Shown here piece by piece: positions 11,872 to 61,294 of a stretch of DNA of 64,000 nt. Origin of the DNA: Sphingopyxis microcysteis. Lineage in GTDB: Bacteria > Pseudomonadota > Alphaproteobacteria > Sphingomonadales > Sphingomonadaceae. The notes under the pieces were generated by a model. It ran no database searches, had not been told where the DNA came from, and was given only the letters and a program-made list of their open reading frames with translations. Made by a program: the position numbers and the translations under genes. Position 1 is the stretch's first letter. Each line of letters begins with the position of its first letter. The DNA lies in NCBI RefSeq assembly GCF_012274265.1, contig NZ_JAANYY010000002.1, positions 682,001 to 746,000 of the forward strand, read 5' to 3'.

Positions 11872-13080
11872 TTAAAAGTTCAGCGGCCCGTCCAGTTCCT
11901 TCACCTGCCACGGCAGACCGTGTTCCATCAGCATGTCCATGAAGGGATCGGGGTCCATCTGTTCCATGTTGAACACGCCGTTGCCGCTCCACGCGCCGGT
12001 GACCATCATCGCAGCGCCGATCATCGCCGGGACACCGGTGGTGTAGCTCACCGCCTGATTGCCCGTTTCGGCATAGGCATCCTCATGGTCGCAGATATTG
12101 TAGAGATAGAGCGTCTTTTCCTTGCCGTCCTTGCCGAGACCGGTCGCGATGACGCCGATGTTGGTCTTACCCTTGGTCGTCTCGCCGAGGCTCGACGGTT
12201 CGGGGAGCACGGCTTTGAGGAATTGGAGCGGGATGATCTCGCGGCCCTCGTAGATCACCGGGTCGATCCGCGTCATGCCGACATTCTGCAGCACGGTGAG
12301 GTGCTGGATATAGGCGTCGCCAAAGGTCATCCAGAACCGGATACGCTGGATTTCGGGCAGGTGCGTCTTCAGGCTTTCGATCTCCTCATGATACATGAGG
12401 TACATATTTTTGGGGCCCACGGCCTCGAAATCGAACTGCTGCTTCACCGACATCGGCGGGGTTTCGACCCAGTCGCCATTTTCCCAGTGGCGCGCGACCG
12501 CGGTCACTTCGCGGATGTTGATCTCGGGATTGAAATTGGTCGCGAAATGCTGGCCATGGTCGCCGCCATTGCAGTCGAGAATGTCGAGCGTATCGATGCG
12601 GTCGAAATGATGTTTCTTGAGCCAGGTCGTGAACACGCTCGTCACGCCGGGGTCGAAGCCCGAGCCGAGCAGCGCCATCAGCCCCGCGTCCTTGAAGCGG
12701 TCGTGGTACGCCCATTGCCAATGATATTCGAACTTCGCCTCGTCGCGCGGCTCGTAATTGGCGGTGTCGAGATAATGCGCGCCGGTCGACAGGCACGCCT
12801 CCATGATGGTGAGGTCCTGATAGGGCAGCGCGAGGTTCACGACATGCGTCGCGCCGATGTCGCGGATCAGCGCCGCGGTCGCGTCGATATGGTCGGCGTC
12901 GACCTCGGCGGTCTTGATCGTGACGCCGGTGCGCGCCTTCACCGACTCGGCGATGGCATCGCATTTGAACTTGCGGCGGCTGGCCAGCGTGATGTCGGGA
13001 AAGATGTCGGGGTTCATCGCCATCTTGTGCACCGCGACTGAACCGACGCCGCCTGCGCCGATCACCAGAACCTTGCTCAT
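11872..13080 (-). CDS. carboxynorspermidine/carboxyspermidine synthase (saccharopine dehydrogenase family)
   Basis: A 402-residue NADPH-binding protein opening SKVLVIGAGGVGSVAVHKMA (Rossmann GxGxxG). HVVNLALPYQDLTIMEACL, HYLDTANYEP and GSGFDPGVTSVFTTW are typical of the Lys1/carboxynorspermidine dehydrogenase branch rather than lysine-metabolism saccharopine dehydrogenases. It reductively couples putrescine (or diaminopropane) with aspartate semialdehyde. It is first in the minus-strand group with DUF486 and nspC, and the pairing with nspC strongly supports the assignment. Whether the in vivo product is spermidine or norspermidine depends on the diamine; the adjacent ornithine decarboxylase favours spermidine. 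Confidence 0.92.
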   Translation of the reverse strand: MSKVLVIGAGGVGSVAVHKMAMNPDIFPDITLASRRKFKCDAIAESVKARTGVTIKTAEVDADHIDATAALIRDIGATHVVNLALPYQDLTIMEACLSTGAHYLDTANYEPRDEAKFEYHWQWAYHDRFKDAGLMALLGSGFDPGVTSVFTTWLKKHHFDRIDTLDILDCNGGDHGQHFATNFNPEINIREVTAVARHWENGDWVETPPMSVKQQFDFEAVGPKNMYLMYHEEIESLKTHLPEIQRIRFWMTFGDAYIQHLTVLQNVGMTRIDPVIYEGREIIPLQFLKAVLPEPSSLGETTKGKTNIGVIATGLGKDGKEKTLYLYNICDHEDAYAETGNQAVSYTTGVPAMIGAAMMVTGAWSGNGVFNMEQMDPDPFMDMLMEHGLPWQVKELDGPLNF

Positions 13081-13144
13081 CGAAAAATCTCCTGCGCCTA
13101 CCTATGCGGCTTGTCTTGTATGCCCGGCCCTATAGGACGAAGCC

Positions 13145-14134
13145 ATGACACAGCAAAGCCCCGATGCCCTTCTCCGTCCCGACCGTGCACCGACCCTTGC
13201 CGGGGTTGAACGCGCCGCTGCGAAAGTCGCTGCGTTGCTGCCGCAAACGCCGCTGCTGCCGATAGAAATCGATGGGCGGACGATCTGGTGCAAAGCCGAA
13301 AACCTGCAACCGGTCGGTGCGTTCAAGATTCGCGGCGCCTGGCACCGGCTGACCGACCTGACGCCCGAGCAGGCGGCGGCGGGCGTGGTCGGGGTGTCGA
13401 GCGGCAATCATGCGCAGGGCGTCGCCTGGGCGGCGAAACGGCTGGGCATCCAGGCGACGATCGTGATGCCGAGTAATGCGCCCAAGATGAAGCTGGCGGC
13501 GACGCGCGCGCTGGGTGCCGAGGTGGTGCTGTACGACCGCGTGACCGAATCGCGTGATGCCGTCGCGGCGAAACTGCTCGAAGCGAGCGGCGGGACATTG
13601 GTCCACGCCTATGGCGATCCGTGGATCATCGAGGGGCAGGGGAGCGCCGGAATCGAAGCGCAGGCGCAGCTGGCGGCGCGCGGGATCGCGGGACCCGACA
13701 AGGTGGTGGCGTGCTGCGGCGGCGGCGGACTGTCCGCCGGGCTGGCGTTGGCGTGTCCCGATGCCGAGATCATCGCGGTCGAGCCGGAGGGCTGGGACGA
13801 TGTGACGCGCTCGCTGGCAGCAGGCGAAATCCTGTCGGTCGAGGACCTGGCCTATCCGACCGAATGCGACGCGCTACAAACGCCGCAGACCTGGCCGATC
13901 AATTTTGCGGTGCTGCAGGCGCGCGGCGTGCGCGGGGTCGCGGTGACCCGCGACGAGGTGCGGCACGCGATGCGGGTGGCGTTCGAGCGGCTGCACCTCG
14001 TCGTCGAACCGGGCGGCGCGGCGGCGCTGGCCGCGGTGCTGGCGGGCAAGGTGGAATTGGGTGAGGCAACGCTCGTCACCCTGTCGGGGGGCAATGTCGA
14101 TCCCGGCCATTATGCGGAAATTCTTGCCGAATGA
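13145..14134 (+). CDS. threonine/serine dehydratase, PLP-dependent
   Basis: A 329-residue fold-II PLP enzyme. The Schiff-base lysine is Lys61 in VGAFKIRGAW, the substrate loop is SSGNHAQGVAWAA, and the phosphate-binding loop is CCGGGGLSAGLAL. It lacks the C-terminal ACT-like regulatory domain of biosynthetic IlvA, so it resembles the short catabolic or serine-racemase-like members. It deaminates threonine to 2-oxobutyrate (and serine to pyruvate). 2-Oxobutyrate can yield propionyl-CoA, which links loosely to the propionate module at 37-47 kb. It is divergent from the carboxynorspermidine synthase with a 64-base gap. Confidence 0.87.
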   Translation: MTQQSPDALLRPDRAPTLAGVERAAAKVAALLPQTPLLPIEIDGRTIWCKAENLQPVGAFKIRGAWHRLTDLTPEQAAAGVVGVSSGNHAQGVAWAAKRLGIQATIVMPSNAPKMKLAATRALGAEVVLYDRVTESRDAVAAKLLEASGGTLVHAYGDPWIIEGQGSAGIEAQAQLAARGIAGPDKVVACCGGGGLSAGLALACPDAEIIAVEPEGWDDVTRSLAAGEILSVEDLAYPTECDALQTPQTWPINFAVLQARGVRGVAVTRDEVRHAMRVAFERLHLVVEPGGAAALAAVLAGKVELGEATLVTLSGGNVDPGHYAEILAE

Positions 14135-23350: not shown

Positions 23351-24331
23351 TCAGGGGACGAAGCGGCGTTCGCGGATCCAGCGCGATGCGACATATTTTG
23401 TCCCGCTGATGACGGGCATGCCGCAATGTTCCGATGCCGGGTCGACGGCACCGTCGGGCAGGGTGTTGCGGAACAACAGCAGGTCGCCTTTGCGCGCTTT
23501 GAACTTCAGCGTCGTCTTCACGAAATTGGTCTCGCCGCCCTTATAATCGTGATTGAGATAGATAAGCGCGGTCAGCACCCGCTGATTGTCGAGCTGCGGA
23601 TTGAAATCGAAATGCGACCGATATTGCTGGCCCGGGCGATAACGCAGCAATTGCAGCGCCTCGCCGCAGTCCGCGTCGCTTTGGGCAACCGCCGCGATAC
23701 GGCGGTTGATCGCATGGACCACCGGGTCTTCCAGCAACCATTGGATCGTGAATTCGTCGCTGTTGCGGATCGGGTCGAGTCGCGTGCCGCCGCGGCCGTC
23801 GTTGATCTGGGCCGGTCGATAGTTTTTGCCGCCGACGTCGAGCAGATAGGCGCATTCGGCCGCCGTGGCAAAACCGGGGTACCGCACGGCGTCAGGCGCT
23901 TCCGCCAACCGTTCGGGCTTACGGCAGACTTCGGGATCGCCCGACGCGGTCAGCGCCATTTTTTTCAGCAATTCGATCTGCAGCTTGCGGCGCGGATCGA
24001 TCGCGACTTCGCCGGCCATGCGGGCAATCGCGGCGGGCCAGTCGCGCGGCCCCGCGATGCCGCTCGCCAGCAAATTTGTGCTGAGGATCCGCGCCGGGCC
24101 ATGCCCGGCCTTCGCGGCTAGATCGAACTGAACGCGCGCCGCGACCGGGTCCGATGCTATGGCGCCGCCGCTCCACAGGTTGCGGGCAAGGACGAACAAG
24201 GCGTCGGGCTGGCCTTGCGCGGCCAGCTGGCGGATCAGCAGCATCGCCTCTTCCGCGCGCCCGGCATTGGCCAGCGCTTCGGCGCGCGCCATCATCGGAT
24301 GTGGTTGGTGTGGATTGAACTGCGACGCCAT
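23351..24331 (-). CDS. prolyl-4-hydroxylase-like Fe(II)/2OG oxygenase with Sel1/TPR-like N-terminus
   Basis: A 326-residue protein. The first ~120 residues are helical repeats (GRAEEAMLLIRQLAAQGQPD, ARVQFDLAAKAGHGPARIL) of Sel1 type. The C-terminal ~190 residues are a P4H-like double-stranded beta-helix with iron ligands in RSHFDFNP and EHCG and the 2-oxoglutarate-binding lysine in SGTKYVASRWIR; LIYLNHDYKGGETNF is typical. It probably hydroxylates a protein side chain. A paralogue with the same architecture is at 53141-54130, next to a TonB-dependent receptor. Here it is convergent with dprA and has no partner gene. Confidence 0.85.
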   Translation of the reverse strand: MASQFNPHQPHPMMARAEALANAGRAEEAMLLIRQLAAQGQPDALFVLARNLWSGGAIASDPVAARVQFDLAAKAGHGPARILSTNLLASGIAGPRDWPAAIARMAGEVAIDPRRKLQIELLKKMALTASGDPEVCRKPERLAEAPDAVRYPGFATAAECAYLLDVGGKNYRPAQINDGRGGTRLDPIRNSDEFTIQWLLEDPVVHAINRRIAAVAQSDADCGEALQLLRYRPGQQYRSHFDFNPQLDNQRVLTALIYLNHDYKGGETNFVKTTLKFKARKGDLLLFRNTLPDGAVDPASEHCGMPVISGTKYVASRWIRERRFVP

Positions 24332-24479: not shown

Positions 24480-26114
24480 ATGAAAAGCAAGTTTCTGACA
24501 TCGGCGACATTGTTCGCGGTGCTGACGACGGGTGCAGGTCCGGTGCCGATAGCGGCGACCCAGGCGCGGGAAGCGCCGGGGCAGGGTTTCTGCCGCACCG
24601 CCGATCTGTTGCCGCGTCTCGATCCCGAGGTCCAGCCGCAGCAGCAGTCCAGCAACAGCGTCAAGACGAAGGGCGGGAGCAAGCGCGATCGTGCGGTCGT
24701 CACGGCGTCCGAACCGATGCCGCCGCCACCCCCGCCACCACCCCCTCCTCCGCCGCCGCCACTTATGGCACCGCCCGCGCCCTCCTATGTCGATGCCGGA
24801 GAGGTTTCGGAGGTCGTCGTCACCGGTTCGCGCGTAGCGTCGCCCGCGCTCGATTCGCCGAGCCCGGTGACGAGCATCGGCGCCGAAGAAATGAGCGCCG
24901 AACGATCGGCCGCTCCGCCGGTGGCGGGTTCGGTGGGCGACGCACGGATCGCCCTGCCGCATCCGCCGCGCCCCTATCCACGGCCGCAGCCGCAGGCGGG
25001 CATATTGACCGCGGGCGAGCATGACGATCTGCTCAACCCCGAACTCTACGCCGCCTATGTCGGCCGCAGCGGCGATCTGGGGCAAGAGGTGCAGAGCCTG
25101 CCGCGCGTCGACACGACGCGCGTGGTGACGGTGAAGGTCAACGACCGGAGCGGCCAGCCCATCCCCTTTGCCGATGTCATCGTGACGTGCAGCGACGGCA
25201 ACAGCATCACCATGGCGACACAGGCCGACGGCAGCGCGGTGTTCTTTCCGGGCCTCGACCGGCTGAGCGAGCGGATCACCGTGACCGCGCGCAAGGCGGG
25301 GCGCACCATCGCCGACGCGCGGCCAGTGCTCGTCGCCAACGCGGCGGGCGGCCAGCTCGTCGGACTGACCGCCAACCAGGCGGCGGCCAAGGTGACCAAG
25401 CTCGACCTGATGCTGGTCGTCGACACGACGGGCAGCATGGGCGACGAGATCAATTATCTGCAGTCCGAACTGCGATCGATCATCAGTGCGATCACGGCCA
25501 AGCATCGCGATCTGGATATTCGCATCGGTTTTGTCTTCTACCGCGACCTGGGCGACGAATATGTCACGCGCACGGTCGTTTTCGACCGCGACGTCGGGCG
25601 GGTACAGGGCACCCTTGCGCGGCAGAATGCGAACGGTGGCGGCGATTATCCCGAAGCGATGGATCAGGCGCTGATCCGCGCGGTCGGACAGGAGTGGCGC
25701 GCCGACGCGGTCAAATCGCTGCTGCTCGTCGCCGATGCGCCGCCGCACGACCAGTTGTTCGGGCGGACGTGGCAGGCGGCGGAAGCCGCGCGCGCCAAGC
25801 GCATCCACATCACGCCGGTTGCCGCATCGGGCGTCGCCGACAAGGCCGAATATGCGATGCGCGCGATGGCCGCGGCGACCCAGTCGCGGTACCTGTTCCT
25901 CACCGACGATAGCGGCGTCGGCAATCCGCACGCGCCGCCGGCGATCGACTGCTATCTGGTGACCAGGCTCGACGCATTGGTGCGCCGCGTGATCGACAGC
26001 CAGATCAGCGGCCGCCGGGTCGAGCCCGAGGATCAAGAGATCATCCGCAGTGTCGGCAAATATGACGCGGGCAAATGTATCCTGCCCGCCGATTTCAAAT
26101 GGCAGAACGGGTGA
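24480..26114 (+). CDS. secreted vWA-domain protein with TonB-receptor-like N-terminal signature
   Basis: A 544-residue exported protein. Signal-like N-terminus (residues 1-27); a 13-proline run at 81-93; the segment 110-132 with VVVTGSRVASPALDSP and PVTSI, which is how many TonB-dependent receptors of sphingomonads begin; a carboxypeptidase-regulatory-like beta-sandwich at about 214-280 (VKVNDRSGQPIPFADVIVTC); and a von Willebrand A domain from ~305 whose MIDAS is Asp314-Thr-Thr-Gly-Ser318. It probably mediates protein contacts in the envelope. The function is unknown. The unknown secreted protein downstream is co-directional 130 bases away. Confidence 0.8.
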   Translation: MKSKFLTSATLFAVLTTGAGPVPIAATQAREAPGQGFCRTADLLPRLDPEVQPQQQSSNSVKTKGGSKRDRAVVTASEPMPPPPPPPPPPPPPPLMAPPAPSYVDAGEVSEVVVTGSRVASPALDSPSPVTSIGAEEMSAERSAAPPVAGSVGDARIALPHPPRPYPRPQPQAGILTAGEHDDLLNPELYAAYVGRSGDLGQEVQSLPRVDTTRVVTVKVNDRSGQPIPFADVIVTCSDGNSITMATQADGSAVFFPGLDRLSERITVTARKAGRTIADARPVLVANAAGGQLVGLTANQAAAKVTKLDLMLVVDTTGSMGDEINYLQSELRSIISAITAKHRDLDIRIGFVFYRDLGDEYVTRTVVFDRDVGRVQGTLARQNANGGGDYPEAMDQALIRAVGQEWRADAVKSLLLVADAPPHDQLFGRTWQAAEAARAKRIHITPVAASGVADKAEYAMRAMAAATQSRYLFLTDDSGVGNPHAPPAIDCYLVTRLDALVRRVIDSQISGRRVEPEDQEIIRSVGKYDAGKCILPADFKWQNG

Positions 26115-50378: not shown

Positions 50379-50418
50379 AAAAGTGACAAGCCCGACGGGG
50401 TGGGGGAGCCAGAGATAT

Positions 50419-52050
50419 ATGACCGAAGCCAGTGCCGCGGGCGCCGTTTACGAACCGACGCAGAAAGAAATCCGCATGGTCATCGCCGCCTCGTCGGCAG
50501 GCACCGTGTTCGAATGGTATGATTTCTTCATCTACGGCACGCTCGCCGCGATCATCGGCAAGGCATTTTTCCCGAGCGACAATGCGACGCTGGAAACGCT
50601 GCTCGTTTGGGCGGGCTTTGCGGTCGGCTTCGGCTTTCGTCCGCTCGGCGCGGTGCTGTTCGGTTTCCTCGGCGATCGGCTGGGGCGTAAATATACATTC
50701 CTGGTCACCGTGACGCTGATGGGCGTGGCGACCGCGGGTGTCGGCATGATCCCGTCGGCGGCGACGATCGGGATCGCCGCGCCGATCATCGTCATCCTGC
50801 TCCGCGTGTTGCAAGGGCTGGCGCTCGGCGGCGAATATGGCGGTGCGGCGGTCTATGTCGCCGAACATTCGCCGCCCGGAAAGCGCGGCTTCTACACCAG
50901 TTTCATCCAGGCCAGCGTCGTCGGCGGATTTGTGCTCAGCCTGGTCGTGGTGCTGGGATGCAAGGCGTTGATGCCCGATGCGGTCTGGGAAAGCTGGGGC
51001 TGGCGGGTGCCGTTCCTGCTGTCGCTGATCCTGCTCGCGATCTCGCTGTGGATGCGCCTGAAACTGTCCGAAAGCCCGGTGTTCAAGGCGATGAAGGCGC
51101 AGGGCGAGCTGGCGAAGAATCCGCTGAAGGAAAGCTTCACCTATCCCGGCAACCCGCGCCGCATCTTCATCGCCCTGTTCGGGATCGCGGCGGGTCTGAC
51201 GGTGATCTGGTACACCGCGATGTTTTCGGGCCTGTCGTTCCTGAAAGGACCGATGAAGGTCGAAGATACCGCCGCCGAGATCATCGTCGGCGTCGCGGCG
51301 GCGGTCGGCATGGGCTTTTTCATCTGGGCGGGGCATTTGTCGGACCGCATCGGGCGCAAAAAGCCGATCGTGTGGGGTTATGGCGTGACGCTGGTCCTGT
51401 TGTTCCCGCTGTTCTGGTGGATGGGCAGCGTTGGCAACCCCGCTTTATCGGCGGCGGCCGAGCGGGCGCCGGTCACCGTGACGGGATCGCAGTGCAGCTT
51501 TGATCCGTTTGCGCAGGTACAGGAAACCGCGTGCGGCAAGACGCTGGGTGAACTCACCAAGCTTGGCGTACCCTACAGCGTCGTGGCGACCGACAGCAAG
51601 TTCGACAGCGTCACCATCCGTATCGGTGAGCGCGAGGTGGCGAGCGAGGATCCCGCGCTGCTGAAACCCGCGCTGGAAGCGAGCGGCTATGATTTCGCCA
51701 AGCAGGTGCCGGGCTGGGGCGGCATCGCGATCATCTTTCTCGCGCTGCTCGGGCTCAGTGCCTTGTCGGGCTTTACCTATGGCCCGGTCGCGGCGCTGCT
51801 ATCGGAGATGTTCCCGCCGCACGTCCGCTATTCGTCGCTGTCGATTCCCTATCATATCGGGACCGGCTATTTCGGAGGCTTCCTGCCGCTGATCGCCAGT
51901 TTCATCATCGCCAAGACCGGCAATGCCTATTCGGGGCTGTGGTACACCTGGGTCGTCGTGCTGGTGGCGTTTCTGGTCACCGCTTTCATGCTGAAGGACC
52001 CGGTGGAGGGCCAGTGGGACAAACAGCCATCCGGGGCGGCGGAGGCCTGA
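50419..52050 (+). CDS. MHS-type MFS transporter with soluble insertion
   Basis: A 543-residue member of the metabolite:H+ symporter family. VFEWYDFFIYG in helix 1, GFLGDRLGRKYTF (motif A) and RVLQGLALGGEYGGAAVYVA are typical of ShiA/ProP-like carriers of carboxylates or osmolytes. It is about 100 residues longer than usual because residues ~340-433, between two late helices, form a soluble insertion with Cys359 and Cys372. ATG 50419 has GGGGGAG upstream; codons before it lie in or near a repeat. The substrate is unknown. Confidence 0.87.
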   Translation: MTEASAAGAVYEPTQKEIRMVIAASSAGTVFEWYDFFIYGTLAAIIGKAFFPSDNATLETLLVWAGFAVGFGFRPLGAVLFGFLGDRLGRKYTFLVTVTLMGVATAGVGMIPSAATIGIAAPIIVILLRVLQGLALGGEYGGAAVYVAEHSPPGKRGFYTSFIQASVVGGFVLSLVVVLGCKALMPDAVWESWGWRVPFLLSLILLAISLWMRLKLSESPVFKAMKAQGELAKNPLKESFTYPGNPRRIFIALFGIAAGLTVIWYTAMFSGLSFLKGPMKVEDTAAEIIVGVAAAVGMGFFIWAGHLSDRIGRKKPIVWGYGVTLVLLFPLFWWMGSVGNPALSAAAERAPVTVTGSQCSFDPFAQVQETACGKTLGELTKLGVPYSVVATDSKFDSVTIRIGEREVASEDPALLKPALEASGYDFAKQVPGWGGIAIIFLALLGLSALSGFTYGPVAALLSEMFPPHVRYSSLSIPYHIGTGYFGGFLPLIASFIIAKTGNAYSGLWYTWVVVLVAFLVTAFMLKDPVEGQWDKQPSGAAEA

Positions 52051-52094: not shown

Positions 52095-53144
52095 ATGATC
52101 GCCGTGCCTTCGCCCCTCCGCCTGTGTCTCGACCGCGACGCGCTGGTTGCCAACTGGCGCTGGCTGGCGGCGCAAAGCGGCGGCGCCGCCGCGTGCGGTG
52201 CGGCGCTCAAGGCTGATGGCTACGGCCTTGGTGCGCGCGCCGTGATGCAGCATCTTGCCGCCGTGGGGTGCCGCGATTTTTTCGTTGCCACTTGGTCCGA
52301 AGCGGCGGCGCTGATGCCGCTGTCCGCGGGCGTGTCGCTGTCGGTCCTGCATGGGGTTGGAGCGAGCGACATGGTCGCCGCGCGTTTGCTCCCGGCGCGT
52401 CCGGTGCTGAACAGCGTCGAACAGGTGCGACGCTGGCGCGATGCCGGTGAAGCGCGACCGTGCGACGTCATGGTCGACACCGGCATGAACCGGCTCGGCC
52501 TGCGCGTCGAGGAAGCGCTGGGCGGTGCGCTCGATGGACTGGCGATCGACACGCTGATGAGTCATCTGGCGTCGGCGGACGAGGACAGCGCGCAGAATGC
52601 GCGGCAGCTCGCCGCGTTTCGGGCGCTGCGCGAGCGGATCGCGGCGCGGCGATACAGCCTCGCGAACAGCGCCGGGATTTGCCTGGGCGCCGAATATGCG
52701 TTCGACCTGACGCGTCCGGGGATCGCGCTTTATGGGGGCATCCCGCGCGGCGAGGCGGCGGGCCATATCGGTCAGGTGGCGTTTCCAGAAGCGCGCGTGC
52801 TGCAAGTGCGTCCGGTCCCCGCGGGCGAGACGGTCGGCTATGGCGCTTCGTGGACGGCGGCGCGCGACAGCCGCATCGCGGTGGTCAACCTCGGCTATGC
52901 CGACGGCTATCTTCGCTGTCATGCGGGCAGCGGGCGCGCGACGTGGCAGGGGCGGGCACTGCCGCTGGTCGGCCGTGTGTCGATGGACCTCACCGCGTTC
53001 GATGCCAGCGATACGGCGGGACTGGGTGAGGGCGAATGGCTGAGCCTCGCCTACGACCTGCCCGCCGTGTCGGCGCAGATCGGGCTGTCGCAATATGAGT
53101 TGCTCACCGGGCTCGGCCGCCGGTTCGAGCGCGTCTGGGGCTAA
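52095..53144 (+). CDS. alr: alanine racemase
   Basis: A 349-residue PLP enzyme making D-alanine for peptidoglycan. PLP lysine Lys39 lies in GAALKADGYGLGA, and the second catalytic base Tyr249 in ETVGYGASW. MVDTGMNRLGL and TRPGIALYGG are conserved, and the C-terminal VGRVSMDLTAFD domain is complete. It is convergent with the P4H-like gene, the two stops overlapping by four bases. Confidence 0.95.
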   Translation: MIAVPSPLRLCLDRDALVANWRWLAAQSGGAAACGAALKADGYGLGARAVMQHLAAVGCRDFFVATWSEAAALMPLSAGVSLSVLHGVGASDMVAARLLPARPVLNSVEQVRRWRDAGEARPCDVMVDTGMNRLGLRVEEALGGALDGLAIDTLMSHLASADEDSAQNARQLAAFRALRERIAARRYSLANSAGICLGAEYAFDLTRPGIALYGGIPRGEAAGHIGQVAFPEARVLQVRPVPAGETVGYGASWTAARDSRIAVVNLGYADGYLRCHAGSGRATWQGRALPLVGRVSMDLTAFDASDTAGLGEGEWLSLAYDLPAVSAQIGLSQYELLTGLGRRFERVWG

Positions 53145-54130
53145 ACCGGACGCATCCCCCAAGGGTCGAAGTCGTGGATGCGGATCCAGCGGGTACTGAT
53201 CCATTTTTCGCCGCGAGTAACGGGTAGCCCGGCATGGCGGCTGCGCTCGTCGACTTGGCCGTCGGCGAGCGTGTTGGCGAACAGGATCATGTCGCCGGTT
53301 TGTCCGCGAAACTCGACGCCGACCGACGGAAACTGCGTCTCACCGCCGTCATAATCGTCGTTGAGATAGGCGATTGCCGTCATCATGCGCTGATTGCTTT
53401 CGCCGGGCAGGCAATCATGATGCAGCCGATATTGCTGACCGGGCGCATAGCGCAGCACGGTGAGCGGTTCGCCCTGCTCGGTGCGCGTGCGTGTCGCCGC
53501 TGCAATCCGCCGGTCGATCGCGTGGATGACCAGATCCTGCTGGATGGGGCCCAGCACCGTGCCCTCGGAGGTCCGGATCGGGTGCGGAATTTCACGGCCC
53601 GTGGTCGAATCAACGACGATCGACGGCACCAGCCTGGGCCCGGATAGCGCCATGATGTGCGCGCATTCGTCGGGCGTGAGCAGGCCGCGCACGACACCGA
53701 GCGTCGGCGACGTCGCCAGCGTTTCGATCGGCGATGCCGAGGCCGGATCGCCCGTCGGGGTCAGCGCCATCGCCGCGAGCAGCTCGCGCTGGCGCGCCGC
53801 GTCGGCATCATGCTTGGCCGCCTTGTCGAGCAGGTTCAGCGCCGCGCCCCAGTCCGCTGGGCCGCCCGCGCCGATGGCGACAAACACCGCATGGGTCAGC
53901 GCCCCGCCGCGATGCCCCGCCGCGCCGGCCTTTTCGAACAGCGCCCGCGCTGCGGCAAAGCTGCGCGGCACCGGGGTGCCATAGACGTGCCACAGCGCGA
54001 GCTCGTAAAGCGCGTCGCCATGCCCGCGTTTCGCCGCGTCGATGAGGAGGTCGACCGCTGCCTGCGCGCGCCCGGCATCCAGCAACGCATTGGCGCGTTC
54101 GACGATGTTCGACGGCTGCACGCGCTTCAA
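53141..54130 (-). CDS. prolyl-4-hydroxylase-like Fe(II)/2OG oxygenase with Sel1/TPR-like N-terminus
   Basis: A 329-residue protein with the same plan as the gene at 23351-24331. Helical Sel1-like repeats cover the first ~120 residues (ALYELALWHVYGTPVPRSFA). A P4H-type oxygenase domain follows, with iron ligands in RLHHDCLPG and RSRHAGLP, the 2-oxoglutarate lysine in RGEKWISTRWIR, and AIAYLNDDYDGGETQFP. The TTG start overlaps the stop of the AspH-like gene (TTGA), so the two oxygenases are translated together, downstream of a TonB-dependent receptor. A protein substrate, possibly the receptor or its ligand, is inference. Confidence 0.85.
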   Translation of the reverse strand: MKRVQPSNIVERANALLDAGRAQAAVDLLIDAAKRGHGDALYELALWHVYGTPVPRSFAAARALFEKAGAAGHRGGALTHAVFVAIGAGGPADWGAALNLLDKAAKHDADAARQRELLAAMALTPTGDPASASPIETLATSPTLGVVRGLLTPDECAHIMALSGPRLVPSIVVDSTTGREIPHPIRTSEGTVLGPIQQDLVIHAIDRRIAAATRTRTEQGEPLTVLRYAPGQQYRLHHDCLPGESNQRMMTAIAYLNDDYDGGETQFPSVGVEFRGQTGDMILFANTLADGQVDERSRHAGLPVTRGEKWISTRWIRIHDFDPWGMRPV

Positions 54131-55278
54131 TCCAGCGCTGGATTGGCAAAGAAGGTCGCAATTTCCTGACGCTCTCGGTCGCTAAGTTCGGGGCGCCAGA
54201 TGTCGAAGATCAGCACGACGCGATCCTCGTGGCTGTTGTTCCACGCTTCATGCTCGATCGTGTCGTCAAAGATCAGCAGCTTGCCTTCTTCCCACTGCCG
54301 CACGTCATTACCGACGCGGAAGCCGCAATTCGGGGGCACGATAAGCGGCAGGTGGCAGATCAGCCGGGCGTTGTGCATCCCGTTGTGCGGGGCAATCCGC
54401 GCGCCGGGGCGGAGCAAGGAAAACATCACCGTCGGCGAGCTGGCGATCCAGGGCAGCGGAACGGCATTCACTGCCTCCCAGGTCTTGGGGCAGCGGGCGA
54501 TGACATCGTCCGACAGCGCACCATTTTCGGCAAAGAACAAGGTGCTCCAGTCGCTATTGTCGAGCAATGGATTGGCGTCGGCGCGCGCCCGATCGACGTG
54601 CGACGTCATATAGGGCCGGAATCCGTCGCCCCCCGCCGCGAGCAGCGCCACAAGCTCGTCGCGGATGGCGCCGTTCGCAGCCTCTAGCGCCGGAGCCCAG
54701 GCGAACGCGGCAGGGTCGTAAAACTGGATCTGCGGCAGCTCGGGGACGTAATAGCCCGTGGGTTCCTGCACAAAGATGCGCTTGCGGCCCGCGAGAATGT
54801 CGAGCGACCGCTGGAAGCGGGGGCTGCGCGCATCGGGGGGCAGGCCGGCATCGATGAGTTTGTTTTCGCGCTGCTCGACAATGCGCGCTTTGAACGTCGC
54901 GACCCATGTTTCCGCGCGCTGCACTTCGCTGTGCAGGTCGGGCGGCAGGTCCTGACGCTGGGCCACAAGAAGGGCGATTTCATAGCGTTGCAACGCATTG
55001 CGATCATCGCCCGCATGGGAGCGGCAGTCACCCTTCATGATGTGCCCACGGACCGCTTGCGGTTCGAGGGCGAGCAATTGGTCGAGCGCGGCTTCTTCGG
55101 CAACGCGATCGCCATCCGACCGGCAGGCGACCGCGAGGAGCAGCCAAATCTGCGCATTGGCGCGGCCGCTCTGCGTGATTGTTTCGAAACGCGCGCGGGC
55201 GATGGCCGACTGCCCACGCTGGAGTGCATCGACGCCTTCTTTCGCGAGGCGTTCGGCATCGTGATTGCTCAACTGCAA
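54127..55278 (-). CDS. aspartyl/asparaginyl beta-hydroxylase domain protein with TPRs
   Basis: A 383-residue protein. TPR-like helices cover residues ~1-120 (NAQIWLLLAVACRSDGDRVA, RNALQRYEIALLVAQRQ). The C-terminal Asp/Asn hydroxylase domain has the two iron histidines expected in IAPHNGMHNARLICHLPL and FDDTIEHEAWNNS, and the 2-oxoglutarate contacts near GFRVGNDVRQW. The start is TTG 55278 with AAAGGA six bases upstream. Such domains hydroxylate Asp/Asn in proteins or fatty acyl chains of lipid A (LpxO); the TPR part argues for a protein substrate. It is coupled to the P4H-like gene and follows the receptor. Confidence 0.85.
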   Translation of the reverse strand: MQLSNHDAERLAKEGVDALQRGQSAIARARFETITQSGRANAQIWLLLAVACRSDGDRVAEEAALDQLLALEPQAVRGHIMKGDCRSHAGDDRNALQRYEIALLVAQRQDLPPDLHSEVQRAETWVATFKARIVEQRENKLIDAGLPPDARSPRFQRSLDILAGRKRIFVQEPTGYYVPELPQIQFYDPAAFAWAPALEAANGAIRDELVALLAAGGDGFRPYMTSHVDRARADANPLLDNSDWSTLFFAENGALSDDVIARCPKTWEAVNAVPLPWIASSPTVMFSLLRPGARIAPHNGMHNARLICHLPLIVPPNCGFRVGNDVRQWEEGKLLIFDDTIEHEAWNNSHEDRVVLIFDIWRPELSDRERQEIATFFANPALD

Positions 55279-55295
55279 AATCAGTCCTTTGGGCC

Positions 55296-55328
55296 AAAGA
55301 AAAGGGGCCGGAACAATGTCCCGACCCC
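55296..55328 (-). terminator. Rho-independent terminator after the TonB receptor gene
   Basis: On the minus strand, GGGGTCGGGA pairs with TTCCGGCCCC (two G-U pairs) around a five-base loop, followed by TTTTCTTT. It lies 25 bases after the receptor stop and before the AspH-like gene, so the hydroxylases would be made by partial read-through or from their own promoter. Confidence 0.75.
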
Positions 55329-55352
55329 CAATCTATTCCGATCGCGTTGCGA

Positions 55353-58300
55353 TTAGAAGCGGGCGCGTGCGCCAGCGTAGAAGCTGCGACCGCGAATGTC
55401 ATAGATCGCGCTGCCGGCACCCGTTGCGGTGCTGCCCAACGGCGGCTTCTTGTTGAACAGGTTATCGACACCAGCATAGAACTGGAAGCTCTTGCCGAAG
55501 CTACCCGAGCTGTCGATGTCGAACGTGAAACGCAGGTCGTGATAGAAGACGCTCGAGAATTTCTCGACGTCCGCATAGTCGAGGTTCACGGGCGGGCAAC
55601 CGGCTGCGGTGCAGGCCGAGGGCAGCTCGTTGAAGTCCTCATAAGCGTTCACGTACATCGGACCGATGTAACGCAGGCGGTAGCCGAGCGTGAAGTTCTT
55701 GTACGACACGTCGGCATCGAGACGCAGTTCGTCCTTCGGATCGCCGAGCTCGCTGAGCAGGCGGTTTTCGAAGTCCGGCAACGACGGGTTCTCGAAGTTG
55801 CTTGACTGGAGGCCATGAACATAGATCAGGCTCGTGGCGAGCTTTACATCGCTGCCCAGCGTCGTGTTGTACGACGCGTTGAAGTCGATGCCGCGGCGAA
55901 TACGCTTCGCGAAGTTCAGCGGCGACGACAGCAGCGAGTTTTCCAGGATCTGGCCAGGGACGAAGCCACCCGGGCTGTTGCCCGGACCGCGCCAGCGGGT
56001 GAACGCCTGGCACAGGATATTATCCAGCGAGGCCTGGTCGTAACAGCCGTTGGCGATCGCCTGACCGGTCAGCGACACGATCACGTTGCTCACCTTGATG
56101 TCGTAGTAATCGACGCTCAGCGAGAAGCCGGGCATGAAGCTCGGCTGCAACACGCCGCCGATGGTCAGCGACTTCGAGACTTCGGGGACCAACTGATCGT
56201 TGCTGCCGCTGACGATCGGCAGCGAGTAAGCGACGTTCGGCAGACCCGAGAGCAACGGACCCAGGTCGGCGGTGCAGTTCGCAAGCCGGTTGGGGTTGTT
56301 CGCGATGTTACCCGACGAACACGGGTCGGCGAAACCCGGCGCGAAGTTCGGAACGGGCGGGAAGCCGGTTTCCGAGACGTTCGGCGCACGAACTGCCTTA
56401 CCATAGCCAATGCGGAAGCGGATGTCGTCGATCGGCGCATAGTCCGCACCGACATTATACGTCCACACGGTGCCCGCCGCACCCTTATAGTCAGAAACGC
56501 GCCCGGCGCCCGACACGCTGAGTTCATGCGCGAACGGCATGTCCTTGAGCAGCGGGATACGAAGTTCGGCAAAGGCTTCCTTCACTTCGAACGTCGGCGG
56601 GTCGAATTCGCCGATCACAACCGCGTTGGTGGCCCCGGTTTCGACATAGTCGTCGTCCTGGTAACGCGCACGCTCACGGCGGTATTCAGCGCCCAAGGCG
56701 AAGCTGACCGGGCCACCCGGCAGTTCGAACAGGCCGCTGAGGTCGCCGCTGACGAAGCCCGAGAAATTCAGCTGCTCAAGGCTCGCCTTGGTGCGTGCAT
56801 TGTAGCTGAAGTAGTTGACCGACGCCGTGTTGTCGGTGCCGCCAAACGGATTGTAGGGGACGCACGCCGCGATGTCGTTCGCAAGCCGCGCCGCGCCGCC
56901 AGCGAAGGCGACCCGAGCTGCGGGGTCAAACTGCGAACGGCACTGGATCTGGCCGGTCAGCGGATTGACGCCAGCGTCAAGCGCGAGCACGAACTTCTGA
57001 CGGTCGATGTAGCCGAACGTCGTCACATCCTGTTCGAACTTGCCGTAGTTGGCGGCAATTTCGTAGTTCCAGTCTTCGTTGAACGAGCCACGGGCACCGA
57101 CCACGACGCGATAGGTGTCACGCTGGAACTTTTCATCGCGGATACCGACATCAAGCAGGCTGCGCGAGGTCACGAAGCGATAGGTTCCCGCGTTGATTGC
57201 CGCAATATCTGCTGCGTTCAGCGGGCCGCCGATGCCCTGTGAACCGTTGCCGTCCGTGCGCGTCGAGCGGGTAAACGACGATGCGACGCCGGTCACGTTA
57301 CAGGCCGCGGTCAGGCTGGTGTTACAACCCGAAGCGATGATCGCATTGGCAAGCCGGGTGCGCGCCGTCGGGTCGTTCAGAACCAGGAACGGGTTGTCCA
57401 AACGGGTGCGTTCGCGCAAGTCGAACTGGCCGAACGTGCCTTGGATGAACGACGGGCCCGCGTTGTTGCCGAGCGCGTTGACGCGGTTCCACTTCGCTTC
57501 GATGAACGGTTCGAAACCTTCGCTGACTTCAAAATGCGCCAGCATGTTGAAGTTGTAGCGTTCGGTGAACGGGAATACCGAGAGCAGTCTGCCTTCGCGG
57601 CCAGTCTGGCCGTTGCCGCCAACGATACCGCCGATGATCCCCTGACCCAGGCGCGTGCCGGTCTGAGCCGTCAGGGCGCCAGCGTCGGTGAAGATGAAGG
57701 TACAGTTGTACGGGGTGCCGACGGTCGAACCCGAACCGGCACCAGGCGCGCCGTTGGTCGAACCGATGCCCGTGCCGCACAGCGGATTGCTGCCCGACTG
57801 TGTGATCGGCACCAGGCCGTTGCGATGAATGCTGGCCGAGCGGATGTCGCGGAAGAAAGCGCGGTCAGGGAAGCCGTCGCTGCCGTTGGGCAAGCCAGCG
57901 GTATCGACGTCGACGACGAGCAGGCCGTCCTGACGACGCAGGTGGCCGATGTCCGAAGCGAAGACGCGCGATTGGCGCGCATATTCGCCATGCAGCGTGA
58001 TGTTGCCGCGATCATTGGCGAAATTCTTGCCGACCATGCCCGACACGAACTGGTTACCGCCGTAACCGCCGTCGGCCACACCGGCCTGGGCACGCAGCTG
58101 AATGCCCTCATAATTGCGGCGCAGCACGAAGTTGACGACGCCTGCGATGGCGTCGGAGCCATAGGTCGCCGACTGGCTGCCCGTGACGATGTCGACGCGT
58201 TCGATCAGGTCGTTCGGGATGGTGTTGATGTCGGGCGACACGGCATTGGCCAGGATGTCGGCAGGGACGTGGCGACGGCCGTTGACCAGCACCAGCGTAC

Positions 58301-58649
58301 GCGAGGTACCCAGGCCGCGAAGATCGAGCAGGTTCAGACCCGCGATACCAATGCCAAGACCCGGGTTCTGCTGCGCGAAGGTGCTGCGCAGTTGGGGCAG
58401 GTCGTTAAGCGAGTCGCCGATATTGGTGTCGGACTGCTGGAAAAAGCTCTCGCCGGTGATCGACGTGATCGGCACGGTCGATTCGAGGTTCGGACGGCGG
58501 ATGCGCGACCCGGTGACGACGATGGTGCCTTCATCGGCGCTGGCGGCGTCATCGGCAGGCGCGATCGGATCCTGCGCCATTGCGGGCATGGCGCTGAACA
58601 AAGCGAGAGTGAGGGCCGAGCCCCGCACTAGCAGGCTAGTCTTCTTCAT
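55353..58649 (-). CDS. TonB-dependent outer-membrane receptor
   Basis: A 1098-residue receptor. Signal peptide 1-25 (cleavage after AMAQ); a TonB-box-like region and plug from ~43 (IVVTGSRIRRPNLEST, then ITSITGESFF), with GLGTSRTLVLVNGRRHVPA and RVDIVTGSQSATYGSDAIAG; then a long beta-barrel ending in the aromatic FYAGARARF typical of Bam substrates. This is the large RHS/oligosaccharide-peptide type found in many copies in sphingomonads, rather than a short siderophore receptor. The ligand is unknown. It is followed by a terminator and two protein-hydroxylase-like oxygenases. Confidence 0.93.
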   Translation of the reverse strand: MKKTSLLVRGSALTLALFSAMPAMAQDPIAPADDAASADEGTIVVTGSRIRRPNLESTVPITSITGESFFQQSDTNIGDSLNDLPQLRSTFAQQNPGLGIGIAGLNLLDLRGLGTSRTLVLVNGRRHVPADILANAVSPDINTIPNDLIERVDIVTGSQSATYGSDAIAGVVNFVLRRNYEGIQLRAQAGVADGGYGGNQFVSGMVGKNFANDRGNITLHGEYARQSRVFASDIGHLRRQDGLLVVDVDTAGLPNGSDGFPDRAFFRDIRSASIHRNGLVPITQSGSNPLCGTGIGSTNGAPGAGSGSTVGTPYNCTFIFTDAGALTAQTGTRLGQGIIGGIVGGNGQTGREGRLLSVFPFTERYNFNMLAHFEVSEGFEPFIEAKWNRVNALGNNAGPSFIQGTFGQFDLRERTRLDNPFLVLNDPTARTRLANAIIASGCNTSLTAACNVTGVASSFTRSTRTDGNGSQGIGGPLNAADIAAINAGTYRFVTSRSLLDVGIRDEKFQRDTYRVVVGARGSFNEDWNYEIAANYGKFEQDVTTFGYIDRQKFVLALDAGVNPLTGQIQCRSQFDPAARVAFAGGAARLANDIAACVPYNPFGGTDNTASVNYFSYNARTKASLEQLNFSGFVSGDLSGLFELPGGPVSFALGAEYRRERARYQDDDYVETGATNAVVIGEFDPPTFEVKEAFAELRIPLLKDMPFAHELSVSGAGRVSDYKGAAGTVWTYNVGADYAPIDDIRFRIGYGKAVRAPNVSETGFPPVPNFAPGFADPCSSGNIANNPNRLANCTADLGPLLSGLPNVAYSLPIVSGSNDQLVPEVSKSLTIGGVLQPSFMPGFSLSVDYYDIKVSNVIVSLTGQAIANGCYDQASLDNILCQAFTRWRGPGNSPGGFVPGQILENSLLSSPLNFAKRIRRGIDFNASYNTTLGSDVKLATSLIYVHGLQSSNFENPSLPDFENRLLSELGDPKDELRLDADVSYKNFTLGYRLRYIGPMYVNAYEDFNELPSACTAAGCPPVNLDYADVEKFSSVFYHDLRFTFDIDSSGSFGKSFQFYAGVDNLFNKKPPLGSTATGAGSAIYDIRGRSFYAGARARF

Positions 58650-59183
58650 AATGTTATTCCCCGGTTGCCGTTCAAAAGATGAGAGTGAACGGGTTGCGCC
58701 CTAGAAAGACAAAAAAGCCGAGCGGCACAAGCCTTTGATGAAATTTTGATGTGATTTTTGTGGCACCGGTTCAACTCGGTCGAGGGCTGTGCCATTTTCG
58801 CAACAGGTAGCCGGGTGGGCCTTGCGGAAGCGAATGGATGCGCCCGGTTGAAGGGGTCGTAATGAAGTTTTGCGCGGCAAGACTTTTCGCGCCGTTTATA
58901 CCAGCATTTTGATTTCATGAGAAACTAAATTGCGTTCGATGCGCGATCCGTCTTCATTGCGGCGGCAAGCGGCTCCGGGGCGCTTGATGGTTTTCCGAAG
59001 CTGCAATTCACCATCACGAAGCCTCCGCAAGTCGCGGGAGGCGAATCGACTGCTGCGCGGTTGGCTGGCCTATAGGTCGCGCATGTTGCGATGCATCATA
59101 ATTTGGTGCTATTGCGCCGATCGATCAAATATCCCGCGCGGCGTGGTCGCCAGAATGCGGAGCAACAAGGAGCGCGGGTCAAG
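58650..59183. other. 534-base divergent non-coding gap between TonB receptor and phaR
   Basis: No convincing gene. It holds the leaders and promoters of both genes. The receptor side (58650-58780) contains T/A-rich stretches and GGGGAAT before the receptor ATG; 58885-58930 is AT-rich (GTTTATACCAGCATTTTGAT). The phaR side has AAGGAG 11 bases before its ATG. I could not assign a specific operator. A long open frame from 58930 is out of frame with phaR and has an implausible composition (Arg/Ser-rich). Confidence 0.6.
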
Positions 59184-59720
59184 ATGGCGAAGTCCAAGAC
59201 GGCGGCGGACGATGGCGTCGTCACGATCAAGAAATATGCCAACCGGCGGCTCTATGACACGGAACGCAGCTGTTACATCACGCTCGAAGATTTGGGGGCG
59301 ATGGTCCGCGACGGGCGCGAATTCCGCGTCGTCGATGCCAAGAGCGGCGAGGACATCACGCATAATGTGCTGACCCAGATCATCATGGACGAGGAAACGC
59401 GCGGCGAAACGCTGTTGCCGGTCAATTTCCTGCGCCACCTGATCGGCATGTATGGCGACAAGATGCAGTCGATGGTGCCGCAATATCTGGAAGCATCGAT
59501 GACGGCCTTCCGGAAGAACCAGCAGGATGTCCGTGCGGCGTTCGAAGGCGCGCTGGGTTCGAACCCGCTGGCCGAGCTGACGCGGCGCAACATGGAAATG
59601 TTCCAGCAGGCCGCCGGGGCATTTATCCCGGGCGCAGGCGGCGCGAAGGCCAAGGACGCCGAAATCGCGGCGCTGAAGGCCGAAGTGGCGGCGCTGAAGG
59701 CCGAACTCGCGAAGAAGTGA
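59184..59720 (+). CDS. phaR: polyhydroxyalkanoate synthesis repressor PhaR
   Basis: A 178-residue regulator. The N-terminal DNA/PHB-binding domain is VTIKKYANRRLYDTERSCYI then TLEDLGAMVRDGREFRVVDA, highly conserved in PhaR; a second conserved block is DITHNVLTQIIMDEE. The tail is an Ala/Lys/Glu coiled coil (AEIAALKAEVAALKAELAKK). It represses phasin and its own gene until PHB granules titrate it. No PHB synthase or phasin gene is in the window. ATG 59184 was chosen for the AAGGAG before it. Confidence 0.94.
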   Translation: MAKSKTAADDGVVTIKKYANRRLYDTERSCYITLEDLGAMVRDGREFRVVDAKSGEDITHNVLTQIIMDEETRGETLLPVNFLRHLIGMYGDKMQSMVPQYLEASMTAFRKNQQDVRAAFEGALGSNPLAELTRRNMEMFQQAAGAFIPGAGGAKAKDAEIAALKAEVAALKAELAKK

Positions 59721-59767
59721 CAGATGGGTGCCGCGGCGCCCTCAACGACAGAAAAATCGGATATTTC

Positions 59768-61294
59768 ATGGTCAAACATGCGCTCAGCGTAACCCGGCAG
59801 GCCGACTTTGCGGCCTGGTATCAGGACGTCATTGCCGAAGCCGATCTTGCCGAGGAATCGGGCGTGCGCGGCTGCATGGTGATCAAGCCGTGGGGTTATG
59901 GCATCTGGGAACGCATCCAGACGGTGATGGACGCGGCGATCAAGGATGCCGGGGTGCAGAACTGCTATTTCCCCTTGTTCATTCCCTTGAGCTTCTTTGA
60001 GAAGGAAGCCGATCATGTCGATGGTTTCGCAAAGGAAATGGCGGTCGTCACCCATCACCGCCTGATCGGTGACGGCAAGGGCAAGCTGGTCCCCGACCCC
60101 GAGGCCAAGCTCGAAGAACCGCTGATCGTCCGCCCGACGTCGGAGACGGTGATCGGCGCCGCGATGAGCCGCTGGGTGCAGAGCTGGCGCGACCTGCCGC
60201 TGAAGGTCAATCAATGGGCCAATGTCGTGCGCTGGGAAATGCGTACCCGCATGTTCCTGCGCACCAGCGAATTCCTGTGGCAGGAAGGGCATACCGCGCA
60301 CGCCGACCGCAACGACGCGATGGCCGAAACCTTGCGCGCGCTCGAAATGTACCGCGCCTTTGCCGAGGATGTGCTGGCGATGCCGGTCGTCGCGGGCGAA
60401 AAGCCCGAAAACGAGCGCTTCCCGGGCGCGGTCGCGACCTATTCGATCGAGGCGATGATGCAGGACGGCAAGGCCTTGCAGGCTGGCACCTCGCATTATC
60501 TCGGCACCGGCTTCGCCGAGGCCGCGGGCATTCGGTATCAGGACAAGGACGGCGGCCATTCGCTGTGCCACACGACGAGCTGGGGCGTGTCGACGCGCAT
60601 GATCGGCGGCGTCATCATGACGCACGGCGACGATGATGGCCTCCGCTGTCCGCCGCGCATCGCGCCGCACCAGATCGTGATCGTGCCGATGCTGCGCGAC
60701 AACGATGAGGATGCCGCGATCCTCGATTATTGCCGTGACCTCGAGGCGCAGCTGAAAGCGCTCGACGCATTCCGCGAACCGGTGCGGGTGCTGCTCGATA
60801 CCGGCGCGAACAAGGCGCAGACCAAGCGCTGGGGCTGGGTCAAGAAGGGCGCGCCGATCATCGTCGAGGTCGGCCCGCGCGACGTTGCGGGCGGCAATGT
60901 CGCGGTCATCCGCCGCGACCGGCTGTACAAGGATGACGGGAAGCTCAATTCGGCCTTCATCGCGAAGGGCGATTTCGTCGCCGACGCGGTCGCAACGCTC
61001 GCCGACATCCAGACGAGCCTCCACGCCGAGGCGAAACAGCGCCTCGACGCTAATATCCGCCGCGACGTCACCGACCTCGCCGCGCATTTCAAGGGCGAGG
61101 ACAAGTTCGTCGGCTGGGCCGAAGTCCAATGGTCGCGCCCGACTGGCGCGGCGCTCGACAAGATCGTCGAGCAGCTCAAGTCGCTGAAGCTGACGATGCG
61201 CAACACGCCGATGGACGCCGCGCCCGCCGACGGTGCCTGCTTCTTCACCGGCGAACCGGCGGTCGAGCGGGTGCTGATCGGGCGCACCTACTAA
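59768..61294 (+). CDS. proS: proline--tRNA ligase (ProS type 3-like)
   Basis: A 508-residue class II aminoacyl-tRNA synthetase. Motif 2 is VVRWEMRTRMFLRTSEFLWQ, then EGHTAHADRNDAM; motif 3 includes HTTSWGVSTRMIGGVIMTHG, then DDDGLRCPPRIAP; the anticodon-binding domain follows. It lacks the ~180-residue editing insertion of the E. coli form and is longer than the 430-440-residue form of many other alphaproteobacteria; the C-terminal extension ending in GRTY fits the archaeal/eukaryotic-like type 3. ATG 59768 is used; an in-frame GTG at 59717 touches the phaR stop. Confidence 0.93.
   Translation: MVKHALSVTRQADFAAWYQDVIAEADLAEESGVRGCMVIKPWGYGIWERIQTVMDAAIKDAGVQNCYFPLFIPLSFFEKEADHVDGFAKEMAVVTHHRLIGDGKGKLVPDPEAKLEEPLIVRPTSETVIGAAMSRWVQSWRDLPLKVNQWANVVRWEMRTRMFLRTSEFLWQEGHTAHADRNDAMAETLRALEMYRAFAEDVLAMPVVAGEKPENERFPGAVATYSIEAMMQDGKALQAGTSHYLGTGFAEAAGIRYQDKDGGHSLCHTTSWGVSTRMIGGVIMTHGDDDGLRCPPRIAPHQIVIVPMLRDNDEDAAILDYCRDLEAQLKALDAFREPVRVLLDTGANKAQTKRWGWVKKGAPIIVEVGPRDVAGGNVAVIRRDRLYKDDGKLNSAFIAKGDFVADAVATLADIQTSLHAEAKQRLDANIRRDVTDLAAHFKGEDKFVGWAEVQWSRPTGAALDKIVEQLKSLKLTMRNTPMDAAPADGACFFTGEPAVERVLIGRTY

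Follow-up and report, generated by a model that had tools for sequence, protein, structure and literature searches.

The window analyzed here is a 64,000-nucleotide stretch of the Sphingopyxis microcysteis genome (contig NZ_JAANYY010000002.1), and its positions serve as coordinates throughout; G-numbers designate genomes and L-numbers loci. It encodes a TonB-dependent receptor followed on the same strand by two oxygenases dependent on Fe(II) and 2-oxoglutarate (2OG): an AspH-like protein and a Sel1-repeat protein of the prolyl 4-hydroxylase (P4H) kind. Comparison with related genes suggests that the P4H is probably a dedicated prolyl hydroxylase of its neighboring receptor, hydroxylating a single residue, Pro771. 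A prior sequence-only reading of this DNA had proposed coordinated hydroxylation by the two oxygenases, directed at the receptor, its ligand peptide or an envelope partner. The receptor as target now has strong comparative support for the P4H, at Pro771; for the AspH-like protein it does not, as no Asp or Asn column of the receptor stands out. Repeated loss of the P4H gene has in effect performed a natural experiment that points to a single enzyme, a single protein and a single residue.

Pro771 and the P4H gene

The comparison rests on a clade of 68 non-duplicate receptors, defined by BLAST scores of >480 bits and by a closer match to the window receptor than to the receptor of L004. The loop motif N[FY][AST]P-x3-D[PA]C is present in 45/45 receptors with a P4H gene in their cluster and in 0/23 without one (Fisher 1.2e-18); counting P4H genes by strict adjacency makes this 42/42 versus 3/26. 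The separation is found in the discovery rows (29/29 with P4H, 0/8 without) and again in the rows added later through receptor searches (16/16 and 0/15; 3e-9). Three additional rows are reported apart from the 68: L234 and L236 have P4H and the proline, and L260 has neither. The P4H gene starts 14-104 bp past the receptor in 31 of 42 cases.

(On the composition of these sets: the first residue scan left out the distant receptors of L010, L011, L042, L089, L092, L093, L099 and L104 entirely, dropped one of the two receptors in each of L013, L024, L083 and L123, and scored L110 as P4H-less; the later clade set includes L042 and scores L110 as having P4H. L130 duplicates L028, and L210-L239 repeat earlier loci except for L234 and L236. 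The first receptor of L108 and the second of L252 are scored as P4H-positive, the P4H being in the same cluster, and so is L250, whose P4H is found next to a receptor fragment on a different contig of that genome.)

What stands at position 771 when P4H is missing? Asn, Thr, Ser or a deletion: a diversity of replacements that would be expected of a lifted constraint. Searching the whole genomes of 22 of the 23 receptors without adjacent P4H turned up a full-length Sel1-P4H only in G044, where it lies beside another, proline-bearing receptor; weak partial matches to the P4H catalytic part were found in four of the 22. The remaining genome, G186, has a P4H that is unlinked to this receptor. The same difference can be seen within single genomes. 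In G044, Pro is found in the receptor next to P4H (L037) and Asn in the other receptor (L245); in G168 the P4H-adjoining receptor (L007) has a Pro that the other (L260) lacks. Two sister loci are likewise divided, L008 having P4H and Pro, and L249 no P4H and Thr.

A column scan of the whole receptor arrives at one residue: Pro771 is present in 45/45 receptors with P4H and in 1/23 without (delta 0.957), the next best column reaching 0.60. Such an association could arise if Pro771 and P4H were passengers of one receptor subtype, held together by shared descent and without functional connection. The two traits do form clusters on the receptor tree, with 9 changes each, and the decayed P4H of G220 is the only independent loss of one trait in the clade. 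Independent contrasts speak against shared descent: 8/8 agree on a quick tree built without the loop, and 9/9 (p=0.0039) on a careful tree with full bootstraps; under strict adjacency, 0 contrasts are opposed and 2-3 of 10-11 are undecided. When labels were simulated on the tree 1000 times (9 changes, 18-50 positives), the maximum was 0.90 for any residue and 0.83 for prolines, and 0/1000 attained 0.957. The within-genome contrasts in G044 and G168 point the same way, and we give shared descent very little credence. On the comparative record, gain and loss of Pro771 go along with gain and loss of the P4H gene.

The enzyme itself matches PF13640 at 54.9 bits (cut-off 27) and, weakly, the Sel1 repeat (24.5 bits; cut-off 30.7). 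It is homologous to P4Hs of solved structure, among them 5iax, named procollagen-proline dioxygenase (E 3.4e-26), and its HxD...H ligands and a lysine (H237, D239, H299 and K309, the last presumably in the position of the 2OG-binding Lys/Arg) are invariant across 47 aligned P4Hs. That it turns over a peptidyl proline is suggested by the comparative link to Pro771.

Plug (PF07715, 67.6 bits) and barrel (PF00593, 100.6 bits) domains of the receptor are both over cut-off. A structural model made with 17 sequences (mean predicted local distance difference test score, pLDDT, 67.6; predicted TM-score, pTM, 0.65) has many barrel-like strands and places Pro771 in a loop of residues 755-822, flanked by predicted strands at 743-754 and 823-834; on the opposite side the turns (741-742 and 835-841) are short. 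Long loops of such barrels are, by their usual topology, extracellular. Since the modeled long loop faces away from the short turns, we take it to be extracellular, and the Pro771 loop is most likely surface-exposed.

The sequence of events that we envisage is the following. The P4H would act on the receptor in the cytoplasm, while it is nascent or unfolded (neither enzyme begins with a signal peptide, judged by eye); Pro771, within N-[FY]-[AST]-Pro-x3-Asp-Pro-Cys, would be hydroxylated ahead of export and folding of the receptor; the hydroxylated residue would finish in the long loop, most likely at the cell surface; and the modification might there tune recognition of a ligand or of phage or bacteriocin, or the shape of the loop. 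If this is true, receptor recognition could depend on the iron, oxygen and carbon status of the cell.

Several considerations weigh against this interpretation. 1) Pro771 may belong to a type of ligand whose processing needs P4H. 2) Direct hydroxylation, its compartment, the exposure of the loop and the purpose are all things that we infer; the loop is modeled with modest confidence (pLDDT 58-73 in its first blocks). 3) The P4H-less locus L242 (G554) has a proline four residues ahead of DPC in a broken motif. Outside the clade, such a proline is found without adjoining P4H (for example in L151, L165, L189 and L083_2782), and L255_3059 and L257_12116 have it where P4H adjoins another receptor of the locus. 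Conversely, L011_6136 adjoins P4H and the second receptor of L123 lies behind P4H, and neither has such a loop. 4) The counts have their own weaknesses: G220 is among the 45 although its P4H has stop codons; the contig of L240 (G625, 86% complete) ends 298 bases past the receptor, so that only the whole-genome search speaks for its lack of P4H; it was via P4H that most discovery rows were obtained; and the loops had already been seen when the score limit of the clade was chosen.

The first of these considerations can be developed into an explanation of its own: P4H (and AspH) would modify an imported ligand, a partner or the expression of the receptor, with Pro771 as part of a loop that recognizes a class of ligands. 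The exchange of barrels between sister species with retention of the enzymes, described below, would suit it. We nevertheless hold it to be distinctly unlikely. The residue that tracks P4H is a proline, which is P4H's own kind of substrate, in a barrel much of which varies, and no other receptor residue follows P4H as closely; a link through the ligand leaves both of these points unexplained. Barrels as distant as 46-50% identity retain Pro771 while P4H is present. The cluster in the window also leaves no room for a further gene, with its 75-base spacer and overlapping oxygenase genes (elsewhere, the search covered open reading frames of 90 aa and more). Hydroxylation of Pro771 by the neighboring P4H is the reading that we prefer.

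A fixed slot with variable contents

How common is the arrangement? Among 199 genomes drawn from the family (matches at E of at most 1e-30), 34 have P4H and 75 have AspH. The draw yielded 38 P4H matches, 37 of which were viewed with their surroundings (two are in the window, some loci are cut by contig ends, and the partial match in G159 was left out of the neighborhood count). A TonB receptor lies upstream on the same strand at 16 of these 37 loci, 14 times within 104 bp; by way of control, 5 of 20 random 20-kb regions contain any receptor at all. The adjacency of receptor and P4H is not due to chance. On a tree of 49 P4H genes, the 29 labeled as receptor-linked fall into a few clades (the decayed P4H of L110 was wrongly marked there as AspH-associated). 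AspH lies between receptor and P4H at only 2 of the 16 loci, namely the window and its sister G181. The exact trio that had drawn attention to this DNA is rare (5/80 genus genomes at the thresholds used), while the receptor+P4H pair holds up as a neighborhood in a fixed slot.

That slot has the order proS-phaR / receptor-(AspH)-(P4H) / alr-MFS. In 17 of 18 genus genomes compared, proS-phaR and alr-MFS enclose the receptor (in G239, across two contigs); in the exception, G210, it is located elsewhere. In another genus, G168 has receptor+P4H ahead of alr-MFS. Five states of the slot are seen: receptor alone (G238, G225, G253, G218 and G224); receptor+P4H (G255, G266, G216, G204, G228, and G243 and G249, the last two picked up via their P4H); a P4H with stop codons (G220); receptor+AspH+P4H (window, G181, G245, G252 and G217); and receptor+AspH without P4H (G239, the sixth genus genome with receptor and AspH). 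P4H thus occurs without AspH in seven of these genomes and AspH without P4H in one, and hydroxylation coordinated between the two oxygenases is not supported. Because of these states, the trio looks like a late addition onto an older receptor+P4H pair, the AspH-like protein having apparently been added in one branch of the genus.

Some further variety in and around the slot may be recorded here. At L110 (G220) the P4H has several stop codons and the adjoining receptor still has Pro771; this looks like a recent loss. L008 has a tryptophan-halogenase-like, flavin-dependent gene (12316-13884, a Pfam match) near receptor+P4H, and its P4H-less sister locus L249 has the same halogenase-like gene (12328-13881), judged from the similar start only. 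Second receptors stand in tandem in the slots of L108 (8908-16223, one copy with a different N-terminal part) and L123 (6114-13715).

The receptor itself also differs between the window and G181. Their DNA is 92-98% identical between 55250 and 49500 and 95-98% identical above 59250; within the receptor, from 58000 to 55500, identity is 62-77%, and it is lowered, to 73-86%, in the region before the receptor as well. At the protein level, the identities are 97% for alr, 98% for MFS, 99% for the proS-like protein, 98% for AspH, 97% for P4H and 91% for the plug, and 62% for the barrel. At 92% identity the G181 barrel matches that of G245, a genome with an AspH only 80% identical to the window AspH; the window barrel is nearest, among those compared, to that of G255 (74%), whose slot has no AspH. 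Because of these differences between barrel identities and those of flanks and enzymes, barrels appear to have been exchanged while the enzymes stayed, with clear borders (55500-58000 against L006), and both types of barrel keep Pro771.

The AspH-like protein

The AspH-like protein matches PF05118 (Asp_Arg_Hydrox) at 152.2 bits (cut-off 22.6) and TPR_16 weakly, at 30.0 bits, just below the cut-off of 32.7; its best AspH chain in the PDB is matched at E 3.8e-27 and 99 bits. Its site has two histidines and no carboxylate: H298, G300 and H343 are invariant in 46 AspH-like sequences. Would it be a lipid hydroxylase? The LpxO type, named by the sequence-only reading as the finding that would count against it, does not apply: the protein scores 52.4 bits against a cut-off of 500 for the LpxO equivalog NF033391, and the LpxO relatives L126 and L128 read HRD (HxD) where the window protein reads HNG. 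The OlsC type calls for more discussion. If the protein were an OlsC-like lipid hydroxylase, it would be a mere passenger of the operon. The OlsC model gives it 120.6 bits, more than the 99 bits of the best PDB AspH chain, and the identical HxG...EHEAWN site is carried by L129 (HRG), a member of the OlsC family that scores over the cut-off; HxG, once considered as a mark of protein over lipid hydroxylases, was dropped because OlsC has it too. The score is nevertheless far under the cut-off of 450 for the OlsC equivalog (NF052565), and there is a TPR-like part where OlsC has its flanking segments. Also to be set against a mere passenger, 16 genes on the AspH tree of 59 (45 loci from the family draw, mostly best-scoring, with own-genome and genus loci) occur with the sister receptor clade and sulfotransferase-like genes; a single group of 5 is of the window type, with P4H and receptor, and 34 have neither (including G239, split over contigs). 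We rate an OlsC-like function as unlikely. In view of its TPR-like part, the AspH-like protein more likely acts on a protein.

The window receptor, the one protein scanned for it, has no site of the EGF type (C.[DN]x4[YF].C). In the window-like receptor clade, no Asp or Asn is among the top columns listed by the AspH column scan; in the sulfotransferase clade (13 versus 5 receptors), N377, N275 and D351 attain 0.80-0.85, no more than other residues do. A more pointed idea makes Asn at position 771 the site of AspH action, P4H and AspH being alternatives at one position of the loop. G239 and G210 fit, with AspH beside the receptor, no P4H, and Asn at 771. AspH is present, though, in 4/9 genomes with Asn771 and in 8/13 with another residue, and sulfotransferase-clade receptors near AspH have Asn in 9/13 and Ser in 4/13. 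The idea is not supported, and we regard it as very unlikely.

The receptor tree largely splits the P4H-linked receptors from the clade linked to the sulfotransferase-like gene. In that sister clade, near AspH (L004, 226-7325), the sulfotransferase-like protein is of ~340 aa, and some loci have a TPR-sulfotransferase; the same arrangement recurs in L050, L052, L053, L063, L074, L076, L080, L082, L083, L085 and L116. The ~340-aa gene has no Pfam family above cut-off and nothing convincing in the PDB; its label, SULF2, comes from a stretch that we take to be P-loop-like (HSGFCCSTLL), and it is called sulfotransferase-like only.

One can think of all this as a family-wide system of sphingomonads in which co-encoded enzymes edit surface loops of TonB receptors: P4H would act on Pro771 in one clade, and AspH and sulfotransferase-like enzymes in its sister clade, with enzymes swapped in fixed slots, barrels exchanged, and recognition of ligands, phage or bacteriocins perhaps altered. 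We offer this tentatively, as a generalization more apt to fail than to hold.

The locus and known systems

The features of the locus are collected in Table 1. The sequence-only reading described the three genes correctly, including the TTG starts and a ribosome-binding site; AAAGGA stands before the AspH start, and the P4H start overlaps the AspH stop through TTGA (54127-54130).

Table 1. The receptor-oxygenase locus and its flanks, in window coordinates.
Feature	Position	Strand	Remarks
TonB-dependent receptor	55353..58649	-	1098 aa, ATG start; plug ~residues 40-230, barrel 231-1098
Loop motif N768-F-A-P771-G-F-A-D-P-C777	56319..56348	-	present/absent together with P4H
Pro771 codon (proposed hydroxylation site)	56337..56339	-	whole-receptor column scan
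Intrinsic-terminator-like hairpin 3' of receptor	55303..55329	-	12 pairs + T-run, within 75-base receptor-AspH spacer
AspH-like 2OG oxygenase	54127..55278	-	383 aa, TTG start; weak TPR match in N-terminus; PF05118 spans residues 203-363; HxG...H site
Sel1-repeat + P4H	53141..54130	-	329 aa, TTG start; H237xD239...H299...K309
Alanine racemase (alr)	52095..53144	+	convergent; 4-base overlap with P4H end; flank of conserved slot
MFS transporter	50383..52050	+	flank of conserved slot
PhaR-type PHB accumulation regulator	59091..59720	+	divergent from receptor; flank of conserved slot
proS-like gene (presumably prolyl-tRNA synthetase)	59717..61294	+	flank of conserved slot

The terminator that had been noticed between the receptor and the oxygenase genes is seen as a terminator-like hairpin. 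A comparable hairpin follows the receptor in 34/42 relatives with adjacent P4H and in 19/26 without, and because it is present with and without P4H we take it to be a terminator that belongs to the receptor; a special attenuator was rejected on the same counts. The enzyme genes would probably rely on read-through past it.

The window holds a second Sel1-P4H (23351-24331, minus strand), 41% identical to the receptor-linked one and with no adjoining receptor; on the P4H tree it sits in a group of 6, 0/6 of them receptor-linked. Its divergent neighbor, a VWA-domain protein (24480-26114, plus strand), contains a plug-like EVVVTGSRVASP stretch.

To our knowledge, bacteria have many oxygenases of the P4H-like and AspH-like kinds, few of them with a known substrate. 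In the literature searched (titles and the beginnings of abstracts, with subscription papers mostly outside its scope), nothing was found on a receptor that is encoded together with its P4H and has a named site.

The AspH-like protein shares with AspH the PF05118 domain, two histidines without an acidic iron ligand, and, by a match just below cut-off, a TPR-like part in front. The PDB chains that it matches are those of animal AspH; in human AspH the TPR part lies ahead of the oxygenase domain. It differs in that the receptor has no EGF-type site and in that one of the two arginines of RLRMH is not kept. With OlsC and LpxO it shares the PF05118 domain, and with OlsC the HxG; the NCBIfam cut-offs are far from reached, and LpxO is HxD.

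Two elements of the proposal are already known: a receptor with an adjacent oxygenase, and a bacterial P4H acting on a loop of a cell protein. The first is represented by PiuA/PiuC of Pseudomonas aeruginosa, a TonB-dependent receptor adjoined by an Fe/2OG oxygenase of the hydroxylase kind (PMC11878004). The window P4H falls far short of this type, scoring 18.9 bits against a cut-off of 143 for the PiuC/PKHD equivalog NF003974. We know of no residue-level link between receptor and enzyme for PiuA/PiuC.

The second is represented by the bacterial prolyl hydroxylase PPHD, which hydroxylates one proline of EF-Tu, Pro54, in the switch loop (PMC6235002). The likeness is that of a bacterial Fe(II)/2OG prolyl hydroxylase targeting one proline of one cell protein. 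PPHD (4IW3) is not among the 19 PDB matches shown for the window P4H, the best of which are other P4Hs. The differences are that the window enzyme has a Sel1 part and that its proposed target is an outer-membrane receptor encoded beside it; if that proposal is true, outer-membrane receptors join the proteins that are altered by oxygen- and 2OG-dependent hydroxylation.

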